Below are positions 1 through 13,570 of a DNA stretch of 13,570 nt, piece after piece. Below the pieces are notes generated by a model, which did no database searches, was not told the DNA's origin, and was given only the letters and a program-made list of their open reading frames with translations. A program made the translations under genes and the position numbers. Within the stretch, counting starts at the first letter, position 1; each line of letters begins with the position of its first letter. The stretch spans positions 1-13,570 of the forward strand of contig DAOVTR010000009.1 in assembly GCA_030633015.1 (NCBI GenBank), written 5' to 3'. This DNA is from Bdellovibrionales bacterium. Its GTDB lineage: Bacteria; Bdellovibrionota; Bacteriovoracia; Bacteriovoracales; Bacteriovoracaceae.

Positions 1-75
1 AATTTATCAGAAATCGTAATTACTTATAGTGAAGCAATTCAAAACTTAAAACAATATGGATTTAAAGGGTTTTGA
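1..75 (+). CDS. C-terminal end of an unidentified gene (5' end outside window)
   Basis: Frame 1 is open from the window edge for 24 codons and stops at TGA 73-75; the last residues read EAIQNLKQYGFKGF. Composition and frame look coding, but 24 residues are too few to name a family. It sits 15 nt upstream of the next gene, on the same strand and in the same reading frame, so the two are probably co-transcribed. Confidence 0.45.
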   Translation, partial: NLSEIVITYSEAIQNLKQYGFKGF

Positions 76-90
76 ATTGCAGTAAGTGTT

Positions 91-933
91 GTGAAAGCTG
101 AGAACCAAACGAAGGTAGCATTTGAAAAATTTAGTGCACTTAAAGACGGAGGTGCTCTTAGCGCTATTGATCTTCAAAAAGAGAATAAAAATTTAGCGAA
201 GAATACTTTTGAAGAGCTGACTTCTAAAGGAAAATTAGTTTGGTTCGATCTCGAGGGGGAAGCTCAGTTTGTTTCAAAAGATCAAATAAATAAAATGTTT
301 GATACTGAGAATATGGAGCTTATTGTAATTGATGGGAAACTTGGCCCAGTACTTTATCAGACAGGGTGGTTTTATCCTAAGGTTCGTGGGGTAATTGAAT
401 ATAGTTACACTTTAGAGGGAAAAACTTATAAAAAGTTATATAAAAAAATAAGAACCCTTTTTAGGCAAGGCCATAGCGTAACTTTTAATAAAGATATTGA
501 TCAATGTTTAGAGAAAGTTATAAGTCAGAGGAGAAAAGGTCAACCAGAAGGTAGTTCAAGATATAAAAATGAGAATTTAGTTAATGGATTAAAAGAGAGT
601 TTTGCAAAAGGTAGCGCATTTTCAATTGAAGTTTGGGATTCTAGCGGGAAACTTGTTGGTGGATCGATTGGTAATCGAGATGGTAATCTTTTTAGTCCAG
701 ACACAGTATTTTATGATCATATTGATTTTGCAAAAATTGCAGTAGTTGCTCTAATCGATAGATTGAAAAAATCAGGAATAGATGTTGTCGATGCAGGGAT
801 GGTCACACCATTTACTGCTGCTTTAAAAGGCCAATATGTTACAACTGAATATTTTGAGCAGCTTAGAAAAACAATTCCTGCAGATGTGGAGGTGGATCTT
901 AATACTCCATGGAAGCCAGAAATGAATGATTAA
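91..933 (+). CDS. Divergent leucyl/phenylalanyl-tRNA-protein transferase (Aat) family protein
   Basis: True Aat enzymes are cytoplasmic and move Leu or Phe from tRNA to proteins with N-terminal Arg/Lys, marking them for ClpS/ClpAP. The C-terminal half aligns by eye with Aat: PKVRGVI (residues 96-102, like PDPRAVL), VTFNKDIDQCLEKVI (130-144), a SIEVWD...LVGGSIG core (178-194), and GNLFSPDTVF through SGIDVVDAG (198-236). Several key residues differ. The GESMF glutamate (E. coli E156, from memory) is D204, the LIDCQ motif keeps its Asp (D234) but has Gly236 for Gln, and the AHS histidine is absent. Residues 1-70 match the family only weakly. The start is GTG with no clear Shine-Dalgarno; the next in-frame ATG, near 296, would remove too much. 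The 3' end shares TTAA with the convergent thioesterase gene. It may be a paralogue with altered activity, and tRNA-dependent transfer is not assured. Confidence 0.7.
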   Translation: MKAENQTKVAFEKFSALKDGGALSAIDLQKENKNLAKNTFEELTSKGKLVWFDLEGEAQFVSKDQINKMFDTENMELIVIDGKLGPVLYQTGWFYPKVRGVIEYSYTLEGKTYKKLYKKIRTLFRQGHSVTFNKDIDQCLEKVISQRRKGQPEGSSRYKNENLVNGLKESFAKGSAFSIEVWDSSGKLVGGSIGNRDGNLFSPDTVFYDHIDFAKIAVVALIDRLKKSGIDVVDAGMVTPFTAALKGQYVTTEYFEQLRKTIPADVEVDLNTPWKPEMND

Positions 934-2310: not shown

Positions 2311-3030
2311 CTACTCATCTTCACATTTTCCTAGATAGTCGCCAGCATGCTGTCTTAACTGAGCTTTTGCTCCCTGCTTTGAAATACGGAGAGTATGGTA
2401 ATTACATGGATTTCCTTTAGGAACATGGCACATGAAAATTTTGTCCTTATTAAGATCCATTCTTCCACAAGCATCCAAATGGTCCATGGGGTTTTTCGCT
2501 AGATGTTGTTCAACTTCACTATCTAGAAGTAGAAGCGTTCTTCCTCTCTCTTGATTATTTTCAAAATGACACATTAATCGCATTCTATATTGTCTTTGAA
2601 ATCTGTTTTGTTTTCTATTTTCACAAGCATTTGTATTGTCTATGTTACTACTATCATTTGGCCCATCAGCAACTTGCTCGCCTTCACCTTCAGAACCTTC
2701 TCCGCCTTCGACAACTTGCTCGCCTTCACCTTCAGAACCTTCTCCGCCTTCGACAACTTGCTCGCCTTCACCTTCAGAACCTTCTCCGTCTTCATTATTT
2801 ATAATACATTCTCCAGGATAATCACTTGGATTTGAAGATAGAAATTCATCAAATTCTATTCCATCTAAAAGGATGATTGTTTCTTGTACAACCTGTCCAT
2901 CTACGTTGGTTACATGACAAACACTAAAATCAAACTGAGTTGTTAGATTAGATTCTAAAACAAAAAAGCCCTGCTCTTCATCGCAAGAGATAAGGGAGAT
3001 TAAAAGTGTTGCCATAATTAAAATTTTCAT
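2311..3030 (-). CDS. Lipoprotein with three Cys-His...Cys modules and an acidic Gly/Glu repeat linker
   Basis: This 239-residue exported protein begins with a lipoprotein signal ending LISC (Cys16, then Asp17). Three related modules follow. Module 1 (about 36-75) has VCHV...PGEC, module 2 (about 152-188) has MCHF...LDAC, and module 3 (about 199-236) has MCHVPKGNP...HAGDYLGKC. Module 3 matches a short motif common in secreted bacterial proteins, of the form ICHxPPGNP...HxGDxLGxC. The modules keep Cys-His at the start and Cys 34-37 residues later. Modules 1 and 2 are separated by a GEGSEGEGEQVVEG repeat (about 82-123, nearly three 14-residue copies), which should be disordered and strongly acidic. 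The start has GGAG at a suitable distance. It is the first gene of a minus-strand group with the peptidase. The function is unknown; a surface-exposed or metal- or ligand-binding role is only a guess. Confidence 0.78.
   Translation of the reverse strand: MKILIMATLLISLISCDEEQGFFVLESNLTTQFDFSVCHVTNVDGQVVQETIILLDGIEFDEFLSSNPSDYPGECIINNEDGEGSEGEGEQVVEGGEGSEGEGEQVVEGGEGSEGEGEQVADGPNDSSNIDNTNACENRKQNRFQRQYRMRLMCHFENNQERGRTLLLLDSEVEQHLAKNPMDHLDACGRMDLNKDKIFMCHVPKGNPCNYHTLRISKQGAKAQLRQHAGDYLGKCEDE
2671..2788 (-). repeat. 42-nt tandem repeat (minisatellite), about 2.8 copies
   Basis: The unit beginning AACTTGCTCGCC starts at 2671, 2713 and 2755. The first two copies look identical and the third is truncated and slightly diverged. 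Each unit encodes 14 residues, so gain or loss of a unit keeps the lipoprotein frame open. Near-identity suggests recent expansion. Confidence 0.92.
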
Positions 3031-3241: not shown

Positions 3242-3976
3242 TTGAAACTTAGTTCCATATTTATTCTTTTTTATGCTTTTATTTTAAATAGTTATGCAGA
3301 TACTATCAATATTGCTGTTGCTACCAATTTTGCACCAGCTGCAAAGGAAATAGTTAAACTATTTGAATTAAAGACAAATCATAAGGCAAAATTGATATTT
3401 GCATCTTCAGGCATTCATTATGCTCAAATAATAAATGGAGCACCGTTTGATCTTTTTCTATCAGCAGACAGTAAAAGACCACAGATGCTTGAGCAGGAAG
3501 ATTTAATTGTAAAGGGTAGTCGCTTTATATATGCAGTGGGAAAAGTAGTACTTTGGAGTAAATCTTTGAATTTATCCGTTATAAAAGACGATATTTTAAG
3601 CAGTAAAACTTTAAAAAAAATTGCAATAGCAAATCCCAAACTTGCACCATATGGATTGGCCGCGAGACAATTTTTGGAATCAAAAAAGTTATATAGAAAA
3701 TTGCAAACTAAAATGGTGGTAGCTGCAACCATTGGCCAGTGTTTTCAATTCGTACATAGTGAAAATGTTGATTTAGGCATTGTTGCAAAATCTCAGGTCA
3801 TAATGCAACAAAGTCCCCATGAATTTTATTGGGAAATACCGCAAATCTTCTATGATAAAATAATTCAAGAGGCAGTACTATTAAATAGCAAAAAAGCCGT
3901 AAAAGAATTTGCCAATTTTTTAAAAAAAGATATTGTTAAAAAAATAATTTTAAAACATGGATATGAAGTTTTATAA
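3242..3976 (+). CDS. modA: Molybdate/tungstate ABC transporter, periplasmic binding protein ModA
   Basis: ModA captures molybdate or tungstate in the periplasm and delivers it to ModBC. The 244-residue protein has a signal peptide (1-19, ending SYA|D). INIAVATNFAPAAKEIV (22-38) has the Thr-Asn pair seen in some ModA oxyanion sites. ASSGIHYAQI (54-63) holds the next binding Ser, FDLFLSAD (69-76) is typical, APYGLAA (135-141) includes the Tyr position, and DLGIVAKSQV (177-186) supplies the Val position. The start is TTG, with GGTGA 4 nt upstream. No other start precedes the signal peptide, and an upstream ATG in this frame stops at once. modB begins 13 nt after the stop. Molybdate cannot be told from tungstate by sequence alone. 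Confidence 0.93.
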   Translation: MKLSSIFILFYAFILNSYADTINIAVATNFAPAAKEIVKLFELKTNHKAKLIFASSGIHYAQIINGAPFDLFLSADSKRPQMLEQEDLIVKGSRFIYAVGKVVLWSKSLNLSVIKDDILSSKTLKKIAIANPKLAPYGLAARQFLESKKLYRKLQTKMVVAATIGQCFQFVHSENVDLGIVAKSQVIMQQSPHEFYWEIPQIFYDKIIQEAVLLNSKKAVKEFANFLKKDIVKKIILKHGYEVL

Positions 3977-3989
3977 ATAAAGGGAATTA

Positions 3990-4664
3990 ATGGATCTTTT
4001 TAACAGTAATGATTTAACAGCGATCTTCGTAACATTGAAGTTAGCGAGCATTACAACTTTTTTTTTGCTGTTACTTGGAACTCCAATTGCTTGGTGGCTT
4101 TCAAAAAGTTCTTCTAAGTTTAAAATTATAATTGAATCTTTAGTTGCTCTCCCACTTATACTTCCTCCTACCGTTTTAGGGTTTTATTTTTTAATTTTTC
4201 TTGGTAAAAATGGTCCTCTTCATATTTTGGGAATTGATTCCCTGGCGTTTAGTTTTGTCGGGCTAGTTATTGGATCATTTTTTTATTCCCTTCCTTTTGT
4301 TGTTAGACCCTTGCAGGAGACTTTTATTTTGATTGGACAAAAACCACTTGAGGTAGCTTATACTCTGAGAGCTAGTCCCATTGATAGTTTTTTTAATGTC
4401 ATACTGCCTCTTTCTAAGCCTGGTTTTATAACAGCCACCGTATTGGGTTTTGCCCACACCGTTGGGGAATTTGGTGTAGTATTGATGATTGGAGGAAATA
4501 TTCCTGGAAAAACTCAAGTTATTTCAATTGCAATATTTGATTATGTAGAGTCTATGGACTACGGCAAGGCCCATTTGATTTCAGCTAGCTTACTGCTGTT
4601 TTCGTTTTTACTTCTTTTTTTAGTTTTTAATTTAAATAAGAAAAGCAAAAAGAGGTTGCAGTGA
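3990..4664 (+). CDS. modB: Molybdate ABC transporter permease ModB
   Basis: An inner-membrane permease of 224 residues, normal for ModB, which forms the dimeric translocation pore. It has about five hydrophobic segments, at roughly 10-37, 48-71, 86-104, 146-168 and 195-214. Between the last two pairs lies the EAA loop, EVAYTLRASP...LPLSKPG (121-145), which docks on the ATPase. GEFGVVLMIGGNIPGKT (159-175) is strongly characteristic of ModB/CysT-type permeases. The ATG follows AGGGA at 4-nt spacing. The end overlaps the modC start by 4 bp, which indicates translational coupling in a modABC operon. Confidence 0.95.
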   Translation: MDLFNSNDLTAIFVTLKLASITTFFLLLLGTPIAWWLSKSSSKFKIIIESLVALPLILPPTVLGFYFLIFLGKNGPLHILGIDSLAFSFVGLVIGSFFYSLPFVVRPLQETFILIGQKPLEVAYTLRASPIDSFFNVILPLSKPGFITATVLGFAHTVGEFGVVLMIGGNIPGKTQVISIAIFDYVESMDYGKAHLISASLLLFSFLLLFLVFNLNKKSKKRLQ

Positions 4665-5731
4665 ATATCGAGATTAAATTTGACCATCAAAAGGAAGATT
4701 TCAATCTTAATGTGGATTTCAAAATGCCGAATAAGGGAATCTCTGCAATATTTGGTCCTTCAGGATGTGGCAAAACCACGCTTATGAGGTTGATTGCAGG
4801 ATTGGATTATTGTAAAAATGGTCGTTGTAAAATAGGAGATCTTATTTGGCAAAATGAATCTAAATTTATTTATCCATACAAACGGGATTTGGGATACGTC
4901 TTTCAAGAGCCGAGTTTATTTGAGCATCTTAATGTATTGAAAAATTTGGAATTTGCTTTAAATAGAGTTAAATTTACTAATTCAAAATTGAGCTTAGAAT
5001 ATGTTATTGATCTGTTAGGTATAAGTGATCTTTTAACTCGATTTGACCATGGCTTATCTGGCGGGGAAAGACAGAGGGTTGCAATGGCCCGAGCAATTTT
5101 ATCTTCACCTAAAATTCTTTTAATGGATGAGCCATTGGCGGCCCTTGATATGGAGAGTAAAGATGAAATTTTTCCATTTTTATATAAAATAGGAAGTGAT
5201 CTGGAAATTCCCATTTTATATGTCAGCCATAGTATTGAGGAAATATCTAGACTTGCTGATCATTTAGTATTGATGGATAAAGGTAGAATCGTTGCGCAAG
5301 ATACAGTTGAAAATTTACTTACTGATTTAAGTCAGCCTTTGGCATCTACTGACAGGGCGGCGGCCTTAGTTTATGGGAAGGTCGTAGGACAAGATCATAA
5401 TAATTATCTATCAGAAATTGAATTTGCAGGAGGAGTTTTTCAAGTTCCAGAACTGTCACATGAAATTGGTTCAAAAGTTAGGCTACGAGTACTTGCAAGA
5501 GATGTAAGTATTGCATTGGAATATCTTTCTGATTCAAGTATTTTAAATATTTTTCAAGGTGAAATTATAGAAATTGTTGGTAGTGGCCTGGCCCAAAAAA
5601 TTATTAAGGTAAATGTTAAAGAAGTTATTTTTATTTCTAGAATAACAAAAAAATCGTCTGAGAAGTTGAATCTTTTTATAGGTAAGAGTATCTTTATACA
5701 GGTTAAGAGTATAACTCTTTTAAGTAATTAG
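4661..5731 (+). CDS. modC: Molybdate ABC transporter ATP-binding protein ModC
   Basis: The cytoplasmic ATPase that powers ModB. In order it shows Walker A GPSGCGKT (32-39), Q-loop FQEP (Gln82), signature LSGGERQR (132-139), Walker B ILLMDE (152-157), D-loop ALD and switch His190 in YVSHS. After about residue 235 come the regulatory TOBE/Mop regions typical of ModC, ending near ILNIFQGEIIEIV and IFIQVKSITLL. Its length of 356 residues is normal. The start is GTG with AGAGG 5 nt upstream, overlapping modB by 4 bp. All catalytic motifs are intact, so the importer looks functional. Confidence 0.95.
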   Translation: MNIEIKFDHQKEDFNLNVDFKMPNKGISAIFGPSGCGKTTLMRLIAGLDYCKNGRCKIGDLIWQNESKFIYPYKRDLGYVFQEPSLFEHLNVLKNLEFALNRVKFTNSKLSLEYVIDLLGISDLLTRFDHGLSGGERQRVAMARAILSSPKILLMDEPLAALDMESKDEIFPFLYKIGSDLEIPILYVSHSIEEISRLADHLVLMDKGRIVAQDTVENLLTDLSQPLASTDRAAALVYGKVVGQDHNNYLSEIEFAGGVFQVPELSHEIGSKVRLRVLARDVSIALEYLSDSSILNIFQGEIIEIVGSGLAQKIIKVNVKEVIFISRITKKSSEKLNLFIGKSIFIQVKSITLLSN

Positions 5732-10239: not shown

Positions 10240-10686
10240 CTATTTTTTCGTTCGAATTGTAAGTACAGGAATTGTAGAGTTTCTTATTACTCTTTCGGCA
10301 GTGCTTCCAATTATTGCATGAGTGAAACCAGTAATTCCATGAGCACCCATAATAATTAAATCTGCATTTACCTGCTTTGCAACATTCAGAATTTCTTTAA
10401 AAGGTTTTCCTGCGGATATAATTATTTGATGATCGAAATCAACAAATGATTTTTGACAAAAGTTTGTCATATCTTCATGGGCAGTTTCGATCATTTTCTT
10501 TTCTAGTATTTCAAAAACGTCTTGTTGCATGAATTTTTTTTGTGTGTCATAGGCACTGGTTCCAATAGAATGAAAAGAGATAAGTTTTGCTCCTGTAAGC
10601 TCTACTAAATATTTTGCGTGAGCACATGCAGGCTGTGAGCAATCAGAAAAATCAGTAGCATATAAAATTGTTTTTATTGGAATCAT
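10240..10686 (-). CDS. Universal stress protein, UspA family
   Basis: The 148-residue single-domain Usp has the usual start ILYATDFSDCS (Asp12) and the ATP-binding signature GAHGITGFTHAIIGS (114-128: G, two residues, G, nine residues, GS), followed by RVIRNSTIPVLTI. It is therefore expected to bind ATP. Its ATG overlaps the TRAP permease stop (ATGA at 10686-10683), with AAGGATGG upstream inside the permease gene, so the two are translationally coupled. A UspA protein encoded with a TRAP transporter is known: TeaD in Halomonas elongata binds ATP and modulates ectoine uptake by TeaABC. A similar regulatory role is likely but inferred. Cysteines at 16, 21 and 77 are more than usual for the family. 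Confidence 0.93.
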   Translation of the reverse strand: MIPIKTILYATDFSDCSQPACAHAKYLVELTGAKLISFHSIGTSAYDTQKKFMQQDVFEILEKKMIETAHEDMTNFCQKSFVDFDHQIIISAGKPFKEILNVAKQVNADLIIMGAHGITGFTHAIIGSTAERVIRNSTIPVLTIRTKK

Positions 10687-12839
10687 ACGGCCATCCTTTT
10701 AATGGTAAATTTTTGATTCATATAAACCATCGTTGTTAAAATTAATCCTGCAATTGTTAATAAAAATCCTGGCCAATAAAAAAGTAAAGTGGCAGCGACA
10801 AGAGTAAGCCATTCAATAATAGTATGTTTTTTTATAAAATATAATAAAGTAATGGATGAAAAGGTTATGGTGCCGAGTGCAGTACCAACGACTACGTTTA
10901 TAATCTCAAAAACAGTTCCATCCATTAAAATAGCAGGAACGTATGCAAATAAAATAGGCATAACATATAAAAGTTTTGCAAATTTAAATGATGTCCATCC
11001 TGTTTTCCATGGATCTGCGCCAGCAATGGCAGCACCTGCGTAAGCGGCAACGCAAACTGGAGGGGTAATATTTGAGTCTTGGCTAAACCAATAAACAATC
11101 ATATGGGCCGCAATAAGTGGAACTCCCATGTCAACAAGTGGTGGAACGGCCAAAACGGCAGTAATTAGATAGGCGGCAGTAACAGGAACACCCATACCTA
11201 AAACTAGCGAAGCTAATGCAACCAACAGTACGGCCGAGAGAATATTTCCACTTGAAAGAGAGATGATTATATCTGAAAATTTAAGTCCAATTCCTGTAAG
11301 TGAAATGGTACCAACAATAATTCCAATAACTCCGAGAGTAGCTCCAATAATTAGAGTATTGTGAGCACCGGTCTGAATGGCGTCCCAGATTTCTTTAAAA
11401 CCCATTCTTGTTTCGGCCCTAAACCAGCTTATAACAACACAAGTGATGGTTGCCCAAAAGGCTGAATAACCTGGGGAGCGTCCTAAAATCATGAGCACAG
11501 TAATAATGACTAGAGGAAGAGAAAAATACCAATCATTTTTTAGAACATCTTTCCAGTATGGAACTTCAGATTGGTCAATACCTTTGATTTTATTTTTTTT
11601 GGCTTCAAAATGAATCATCCAAAACACAGAGAAAAAATACATTAAAGCTGGAATGATTGCAATGGCCATAATATATGAATATGGCTTTCCAGTAAGCTCG
11701 GCCATTAGAAATCCTCCGGCTCCCATAATTGGAGGAAGAAACATTCCACCAATAGAAGCAGCAGGCTCAATGGCGCCAGCAACATGGGGTCTAAACCCTG
11801 CTTTTTTCATTAAAGGTATTGTAAATGCTCCCGTGGAAACAGTATTTGCAATGGCACTGCCTGACACAGAACCGAAAATTGCTGACGCGAAAACTGCAAC
11901 TTTGGCAGGGCCACCAGTACTTTTTCCAGCAATTGCCAGTGGTAGATTAATAAAAAATTTACCTGCACCAGATTTATGTAAAAATGCTCCAAAAAATATA
12001 AATAGAATTACATAAGTCGCAAGGACGTTTGCCATTATGCCGAAAATACCATTAGTTGTTAAAAAGAGAGCAACGGCCAGTCTTTGAATACCAAATCCTC
12101 GATGAGCAATGATTTCTGGAAAATATGGCCCTAAATATGCGTATAAAATCATGAAAATTCCAATGAGTGTCATTGACCATCCGAGAACTCTACGGCAAAT
12201 TTCCACGGCCATAATCAAGCCGACCATACTAACTAGGGCATCGAGATCATTTTCTGCTCCGGCCCTAAAGTTTAAATTTTCAAATTCTTTAATCCAGTAG
12301 TAAATAGCAGACATGGAAATTATTGCAAATAAAACATCTGAAAAAGTTGGATTTTTAGGCCACCTTTTTTCAGATAATTTATCAACATAATATATTAATC
12401 CAGCAAGAGCAATTGCACCTAAATAAATTGGATAAAATTCTATCATGGTACTAAAGGCAGCACTTAAACCTAGTTCATCATAAACTGAAGAAATATTTGA
12501 AAACTTTTCATTAAAAACGGCACTACTTTTAAAGTACAAGATAATGGAAAGAGTACTACTTACAATGGTTCCTATAATAAGAGAGTGAATAATCTTATAT
12601 ATTTTACTGCCGGCGGGATAAAGAAGAAAAATCATGGCAAAGGTTAAAAAGACATATACTCCACGATGCATCTGAGTTGAAACAGTAGATAGTCCTGCAG
12701 TGTATAGGTAAAATATAACCATGGTTGCAGCAAATAAAGCGATAATATAGTGCCATAGACCAGTTGGTTTTCTGTAAGATTTGGCATCTTTTTCTAATAT
12801 CTCTTTTAATTTTTCATCTTTTTTTTCTAAATCATTCAT
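10683..12839 (-). CDS. TRAP transporter fused permease (DctQ-DctM, 4TM/12TM type, TAXI system)
   Basis: The 718-residue inner-membrane protein fuses the small (DctQ-like, N-terminal helices to about 160) and large (DctM-like, about 200-650) TRAP permease subunits, as in TAXI-type systems. Diagnostic segments are GSVSGSAIANTVSTGAFTIP (323-342), KKAGFRPHVAGAIEPAASIGG, FLPPIMGAGGFLMAE near 367-381 and, later, SQDSNITPPVCVAAYAGAA. A final hydrophobic region of about four helices ends the protein. It uses an ion gradient with a periplasmic binding protein to import organic solutes; the substrate is unknown. I chose ATG 12839 (MNDLEKK), which has a GAGA-type SD. ATG 12851 has none, and TTG 12872 lies inside a terminator stem. 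The gene follows the TAXI gene and overlaps usp by 4 bp. Confidence 0.92.
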   Translation of the reverse strand: MNDLEKKDEKLKEILEKDAKSYRKPTGLWHYIIALFAATMVIFYLYTAGLSTVSTQMHRGVYVFLTFAMIFLLYPAGSKIYKIIHSLIIGTIVSSTLSIILYFKSSAVFNEKFSNISSVYDELGLSAAFSTMIEFYPIYLGAIALAGLIYYVDKLSEKRWPKNPTFSDVLFAIISMSAIYYWIKEFENLNFRAGAENDLDALVSMVGLIMAVEICRRVLGWSMTLIGIFMILYAYLGPYFPEIIAHRGFGIQRLAVALFLTTNGIFGIMANVLATYVILFIFFGAFLHKSGAGKFFINLPLAIAGKSTGGPAKVAVFASAIFGSVSGSAIANTVSTGAFTIPLMKKAGFRPHVAGAIEPAASIGGMFLPPIMGAGGFLMAELTGKPYSYIMAIAIIPALMYFFSVFWMIHFEAKKNKIKGIDQSEVPYWKDVLKNDWYFSLPLVIITVLMILGRSPGYSAFWATITCVVISWFRAETRMGFKEIWDAIQTGAHNTLIIGATLGVIGIIVGTISLTGIGLKFSDIIISLSSGNILSAVLLVALASLVLGMGVPVTAAYLITAVLAVPPLVDMGVPLIAAHMIVYWFSQDSNITPPVCVAAYAGAAIAGADPWKTGWTSFKFAKLLYVMPILFAYVPAILMDGTVFEIINVVVGTALGTITFSSITLLYFIKKHTIIEWLTLVAATLLFYWPGFLLTIAGLILTTMVYMNQKFTIKRMAV

Positions 12840-12857
12840 GTTTGTTCTCATTTTTTT

Positions 12858-12890
12858 AAAAAAAAGGGCCAAGATAGACTTGGCCCTTTT
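12858..12890 (-). terminator. Intrinsic terminator/attenuator between binding-protein and permease genes
   Basis: AAAAGGGCCAAG (12862-12873 on +) pairs with CTTGGCCCTTTT (12879-12890), a perfect 12-bp stem with a 5-nt loop. On the minus strand eight T residues follow (12865-12858). It lies after the TAXI stop and 19 nt before the permease ATG, so partial read-through would lower permease relative to binding protein. Confidence 0.88.
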
Positions 12891-12905
12891 GGTGTGTTGT
12901 AAAAG

Positions 12906-13565
12906 TTATTTAACTTTTAGACCTTTTTCTGCCCAAAATTTCTTTGCTCCACTATGAACAGGAGTAACGATACCGGAAAGAGCACCTTTAACACTCATTG
13001 CCTTTGCAGTACTTTTAACCTTGATCATATATGAAAGTCCTTCTTTAGAGAAAATATTCTTTAATGAATTATAAACTATATCAGATTTAACATGCTTTCC
13101 AGCAACCCAAAGAGCTGAGTCTTGAAAAGTCTTTACTGGATTTTTTTGTCCTCTATAAGTTTTAGCAGGAATATCTAATTTTGTGTAAAATGGATAATCT
13201 CTGAAAAAACCAGCTTTATTTCCTGCTTCAACAATATCTAAGATTGTAACTTTATTGCTTGAAGAAGCTTGAATAACTGCTGCATTTGGATAACCTGCAA
13301 ATACCCACATGGCATCAATAAGTCTATCACTCAAAGCTGAAGCAGCTTTTGAATAACCAATAAATTCAACTTTCATTTGATCCCATAGACCAAGTGAAGT
13401 AAAAAATCTTTGAGCAGATCCGGCAGCGCCAGAACCAGCTCCTCCAACAGCAACTCTTTTTCCTTTTAAGTCAGAAACTTTTTTAATTCCGACATCGTAA
13501 AAATCTTTAGCAATGCTTTTACCAACACCGGGAATTATTTGTAGATCTTTAAGTTGATTTGTCAT
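12906..13565 (-). CDS. TAXI-family TRAP binding protein, C-terminal part, with a helix-hairpin-helix N-terminus (chimera)
   Basis: Residues 26-219 match the second part of TAXI binding proteins: GIKKVSDLKGKRVAVGGAGS (26-45), MKVEFIGYSKAASALSDRLI, WVFAGYPNAAV, DYPFYTKLDIPAKTYRGQ and VHSGAKKFWAEKG. These periplasmic proteins feed solute to the TRAP permease, here encoded next downstream. A complete TAXI protein has about 320 residues and a signal peptide. Here the signal and first lobe are absent, and residues 4-25 read QLKDLQIIPGVGKSIAKDFY followed by DV. That is a helix-hairpin-helix sequence like cytoplasmic Cdd1/'pathogenicity locus' proteins. The switch falls in GIKKVSDLKGK (13458-13490), which suits both families. 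The frame stays open to the window edge (GAT before the ATG). As it stands the product is unlikely to be exported. It is a recombinant remnant or an assembly join. Confidence 0.75.
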   Translation of the reverse strand: MTNQLKDLQIIPGVGKSIAKDFYDVGIKKVSDLKGKRVAVGGAGSGAAGSAQRFFTSLGLWDQMKVEFIGYSKAASALSDRLIDAMWVFAGYPNAAVIQASSSNKVTILDIVEAGNKAGFFRDYPFYTKLDIPAKTYRGQKNPVKTFQDSALWVAGKHVKSDIVYNSLKNIFSKEGLSYMIKVKSTAKAMSVKGALSGIVTPVHSGAKKFWAEKGLKVK

Positions 13566-13570
13566 ATCAT

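Follow-up and report, generated by a model that had tools for sequence, protein, structure and literature searches.

At one end of the window, the whole 13,570-nt stretch of DNA that was analysed here, a minus-strand frame opens like a Cdd1-type protein and continues as a TAXI binding protein. The frame is most likely a chimeric read or a misassembly at the tip of a contig, made outside the cell, and as such an ordinary occurrence and not a new protein. A chimeric read, arising by template switching during amplification, or a misjoin during assembly would have fused a Cdd1 gene's 5' part with the middle of a TAXI gene; the joining point would be the stretch coding for VSDLKGK, which by chance would lie in the same frame in both genes, and the assembly would have gone on in the wrong locus for about 100 nt and then stopped. 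The true TAXI gene of the organism would be of full length and ordinary, heading an operon of TAXI protein and fused permease. That sequencing reads would fail to back the join is our inference, and the laboratory or software step that made it is likewise presumed. The relevant features are:

10683 to 12872, minus strand: TRAP transporter fused permease, the partner of the TAXI gene (TIGR02123, 624.9 bits, cut-off 320.65)
12862 to 12890, minus strand: hairpin between the TAXI stop codon and the permease, followed by a T run on the minus strand (fold of minus-strand positions 12845-12900, -19.2 kcal/mol, z -4.81)
12906 to 13457, minus strand: C-terminal part of a TAXI binding protein, R38 to stop (TIGR02122 positions 130-320 of 320; 191 of 194 residues as in P0001 residues 125-318)
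13455 to 13475, minus strand: join interval, in which DLKGK (13458-13472) fits both families (residue counts in 51 Cdd1 and 119 TAXI relatives, and alignments)
13476 to 13565, minus strand: Cdd1-type (helix-hairpin-helix) N-terminus, M2 to V31 (PF11731 positions 3-37 of 86; best relative P0121, with 86% identity across 90% of the 40 query residues)
13566 to 13570, no strand: probable contig tip, 5 nt past the Cdd1-like start codon (P0172 on a 13570-base contig)

Parts of two families in one frame

The frame spans positions 12906-13565 (219 amino acids), ends with the TAA stop codon at 12906-12908 and remains open up to 13568, which gives 220 residues; residue numbers used here follow this 220-residue open translation (D1, M2 and so on). 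In Pfam, residues 4-38 match positions 3-37 of the 86-position helix-hairpin-helix family Cdd1 (PF11731) with 29.8 bits at a cut-off of 25.5, and the 37-residue piece alone scores 33.7 bits; the whole domain is not reached, profile positions 38-86 being missing. Residues 25-216 correspond to positions 100-289 of 289 of the Pfam family NMT1_3 (PF16868; 134.1 bits), and the NCBIfam model TRAP_TAXI (TIGR02122) is matched at positions 130-320 of 320 with 143.6 bits (cut-off 84.35). Judged by these scores, the Cdd1 half and the TAXI half both lie above chance, and the original prediction, which had described a helix-hairpin-helix start running unbroken into a TAXI binding protein, is borne out by all three profiles. 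The TAXI part comprises the last 60% of such a protein. According to the available text of PMC12344293, TAXI binding proteins have around 300 to 350 amino acids and two alpha/beta domains, a size that the frame, with TIGR02122 positions 130-320 only, does not reach. An N-terminal export or lipoprotein signal is absent, as judged from the family match and by eye; the Cdd1 match stands in its place, and the loss of the signal peptide had been predicted correctly.

The fused TRAP membrane component adjoins the TAXI part, which supports the assignment of the latter to the TAXI family. A pattern scan listed the hairpin between the two genes on the plus strand only; its position is as if it lowered expression of the permease relative to the binding protein, which would be its presumed role. 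The listed TTG start codon of the permease at 12872 lies inside the hairpin, and by eye the ATG at 12851 seems the likelier start.

Relatives of the two halves

The closest relative of the TAXI part is P0001, a full-length TAXI protein of 318 amino acids with a hydrophobic, signal-like N-terminus, which is encoded on an ENA contig of 7,921 bp and known here as protein only. Its residues 125-318 align with the window frame at 191 of 194 identical positions, including all 181 from A40 on. The sole differences, K30/T, S32/A and V39/I (window/P0001), all fall among the first 13 of the 194 residues, at the join, and residues 1-124 of P0001 have no counterpart in the frame. A search with the whole frame returned 832 proteins, and the query cover of each of the 120 listed did not exceed 89%. 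The search with residues 1-40, whose range is limited to proteins of about 36 to 115 amino acids, found 51 proteins, all of which have a listed Cdd1 domain; P0121 was the best match (86% identity). This protein of 49 amino acids, encoded on an ENA contig of 1,541 bp, looks by eye as if it were internally shortened between two similar stretches starting with D-P, and the shortening resembles a deletion at a short repeat.

No second example of the combination was found. When a Cdd1 profile made from 50 of the 51 relatives was run against the TAXI proteins listed, 120 in number, no match was significant (best E value 0.12), and Cdd1 and TAXI did not occur in one open reading frame in any of the 84 fetched loci, 80 of which carry a TAXI frame, so that the window frame is the sole example. 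It had been proposed that close relatives whose TAXI protein naturally carries this N-terminus would speak against a join; there are none among these proteins and loci, and a natural family of Cdd1-TAXI fusions was rejected on the same grounds. In the loci L001 and L006, the TAXI gene is of full length and is followed by the fused permease. Among genome contigs, the best 80 of 171 relatives of P0001 are at most 72% identical, and they therefore provide no native DNA with which the join could be compared. In viral contigs, the exact 36-nt junction pattern had no match and P0001 had no relative; both results were expected and carry little weight.

A Cdd1 gene is present in two of nine TAXI-bearing genomes. 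In both, a 200-nt piece of the Cdd1 gene is absent from the TAXI locus, the loci covering only part of the contigs or genomes; Cdd1 and TAXI genes are thus not known to be neighbours. A simple deletion that fused adjacent Cdd1 and TAXI genes was rejected because the piece is missing from the TAXI locus in both genomes.

The join lies around DLKGK

The join can be confined to 21 nt by the residues on either side of DLKGK. S32 (13473-13475) is Cdd1-like, since serine occupies this position in 49 of 51 Cdd1 relatives and in only 13 of 119 TAXI relatives, and R38 (13455-13457) is TAXI-like, arginine being found here in 114 of 119 TAXI relatives; the join therefore lies within 13455-13475. DLKGK itself is present in 22 of the 51 Cdd1 relatives, where it is followed by D, N, S or I in 21 cases and by R in one, and the Cdd1 relatives have VSDLKGK in common with the frame and diverge thereafter. 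That the junction block suits both families, as originally suggested, is thus confirmed for DLKGK at 13458-13472. Two neighbouring positions do not discriminate between the families: K30 is lysine in 61 of 119 TAXI and 16 of 51 Cdd1 relatives, and at V39, where P0001 has isoleucine, valine prevails among the TAXI relatives (85 of 119). K30, S32 and V39 are found together in two of the 119 TAXI relatives, and the Cdd1 origin of the N-terminus rests on the residues upstream of K30. A repeat search of the region comprising permease and TAXI gene revealed nothing at the join. When the window is compared codon by codon, in the best case, with a gene that could encode P0001, 3 of 51 nt differ across the join and the longest uninterrupted run is 20 nt.

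Recombination within the cell between a Cdd1 and a TAXI gene at the shared stretch could have replaced the 5' end of the TAXI gene. What remained, perhaps in part of the population, would be a remnant neither exported nor functional and a transporter deprived of its receptor. Such a recombinant allele is considered unlikely, although several points speak for it. The two parts are joined in frame at shared sequence; chance alone keeps the frame in one case out of three, which counts against an artefact. The Cdd1-like tail has a G+C content of 0.292, within one standard deviation of that of the window (0.332, standard deviation 0.061 in 113-nt windows), and may consequently come from the same genome, as it also would after genuine recombination. 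P0121, with its apparent shortening between short similar stretches, itself suggests, by eye, that such genes may rearrange. However, the join lies at a probable contig tip, an intact and near-identical P0001 exists, no second example occurs in the loci and proteins searched, and the two genes are not known to be adjacent in the two of nine genomes with Cdd1.

Position of the join at the probable contig tip

The window encodes an Aat-like protein, P0172, and the one contig listed for this protein has 13570 bases, a length equal to that of the window. The original prediction did not mention that the frame reaches a probable contig tip. The window is very probably the whole contig of 13,570 bp, presumably from a metagenome, which would place the join (13455-13475) at 95-115 nt from the tip, about the length of one short read; the chance that a uniformly placed join falls that near an end is 1.7%. 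Together with the intact counterpart P0001, identical at 191 of 194 positions, this location matches what is expected of a chimera at a contig end. A contig can also end close to a join that only some members of a population carry, which counts against an artefact.

The kind of artefact is narrowed by the length of the shared run. The smallest k-mer in a commonly used assembler set is 21 (PMC8172020, in the part available), and the best-case run of 20 nt is shorter; a pure graph misjoin would thus be hard to obtain. The run length is more easily reconciled with a chimeric read, or with a real join. In single-cell contigs, chimeric reads joined non-contiguous regions, and the authors suggest, in the accessible portion of PMC2731171, that annotation may reveal some of them. 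The original prediction had offered recombination or an assembly join at shared sequence and had ranked a functional fusion last. This ranking is supported, and the artefact is the favoured of the two: the probable tip is near, P0001 is intact and near-identical, and a second example was not found among the proteins and loci searched.

Near the other contig end (window positions 1-933), an in-frame TGA at 73-75 may have truncated the plus-strand frame 91-933, which resembles a Leu/Phe-tRNA transferase. The frame read across this codon scores 66 against P0175, the best of 200 shuffles reaching 54; with the other five of the six relatives tried, it does not exceed the shuffles.

A functional fusion is very unlikely

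It could also be imagined that the frame encodes a functional Cdd1-TAXI fusion that acts as a cytoplasmic sensor or regulator and carries a helix-hairpin-helix head on a TAXI ligand-binding part; we regard this as extremely improbable. A real, expressed fusion generated by recombination at the coding stretch that the two unrelated families share, in which a binding-protein domain 2 would lie in the cytoplasm with a helix-hairpin-helix head, is just as hard to credit. The architecture can be assessed with the solved structure of VcGluP (8S4J), in which, according to the part of PMC11574862 available, domain 1 comprises residues 29-115 and 268-328, the hinge residues 116-131 and 255-267, and domain 2 residues 132-254. 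When P0001 is aligned to chain 8s4j, with the first chain residue taken to be 29, the TAXI part of the window starts near VcGluP residue 136. The window keeps nearly all of domain 2 together with the second segments of the hinge and of domain 1; the first segments of both are missing, as is the export signal. The predicted absence of the first lobe holds in part: the first segment of domain 1 is gone, but the second is kept.

The frame is open, and the two parts meet near a domain boundary, window residue 27 corresponding to about VcGluP 136 on this inferred numbering and domain 2 beginning at 132. A TAXI protein with additional N-terminal domains is also known, BP0403 of Bordetella pertussis, described in the available sections of PMC12344293; in BP0403, however, the binding-protein domain is intact and a lipoprotein signal is present. 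In the window, just 35 of 86 Cdd1 positions are present; domain 1 has lost its first segment and the hinge its first strand, the second segments being retained. No homologue of the same architecture exists among the 120 listed TAXI proteins or in the 84 loci, and the term helix-hairpin-helix is absent from the 8 papers listed, out of 11 that matched a literature search on TAXI proteins, TRAP transporters, this motif and fusions. A structure model based on a 65-row alignment has a mean pLDDT of 72.5 and a pTM of 0.49, with a pLDDT of about 52 for residues 1-20, and a single-sequence model is poor (pLDDT 41.6). A working receptor in the cytoplasm is very unlikely to result from a frame with no export signal, an incomplete domain 1, one hinge strand too few and nothing to match Cdd1 positions 38-86.

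Other features of the window

A tandem array at 2670-2793 consists of 3.0 copies of 42-nt units that are 98% alike. It lies within the minus-strand frame 2311-3030, whose product, a small Cys-rich protein, thereby contains a repetitive stretch rich in Glu and Gly. Three consecutive plus-strand frames at 3242-5731 are what we take to be a molybdate-type ABC transporter, comprising a binding protein, a permease and an ATPase.

Significance and comparison with known systems

With a chimera at the contig end as the preferred explanation, the frame has little significance for biology, and its value is a lesson in method: an in-frame 'fusion' whose extra domain lies around one read length from a contig tip, and for which an intact near-identical protein exists, should be presumed to be an artefact unless reads show otherwise. 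If the join were real, it would show that unrelated families can recombine where they have a short stretch of coding sequence in common.

Of the chimeric contigs described for metagenome and single-cell assemblies, those in the available part of PMC8172020 likewise join unrelated loci at a contig end, and those in the accessible text of PMC2731171 likewise join unrelated loci; both studies rested on reads and references, whereas the join in the window is known from the sequence alone. With the Cdd1 family PF11731, the frame shares the first 35 or so residues and differs in lacking profile positions 38-86. BP0403 resembles the frame in having a TAXI domain with added N-terminal sequence, but, unlike the frame, it has a lipoprotein signal and its binding-protein domain is complete (PMC12344293, available sections). 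Compared with the TAXI TRAP family (TIGR02122, PF16868), of which P0001 is the nearest member and VcGluP a solved one, the window lacks the export signal, the first segment of domain 1 and the first hinge strand and carries a Cdd1-type N-terminus instead; in common with the family, it has the last 194 residues, domain 2, the second segments of the hinge and of domain 1, and a fused TRAP permease downstream.
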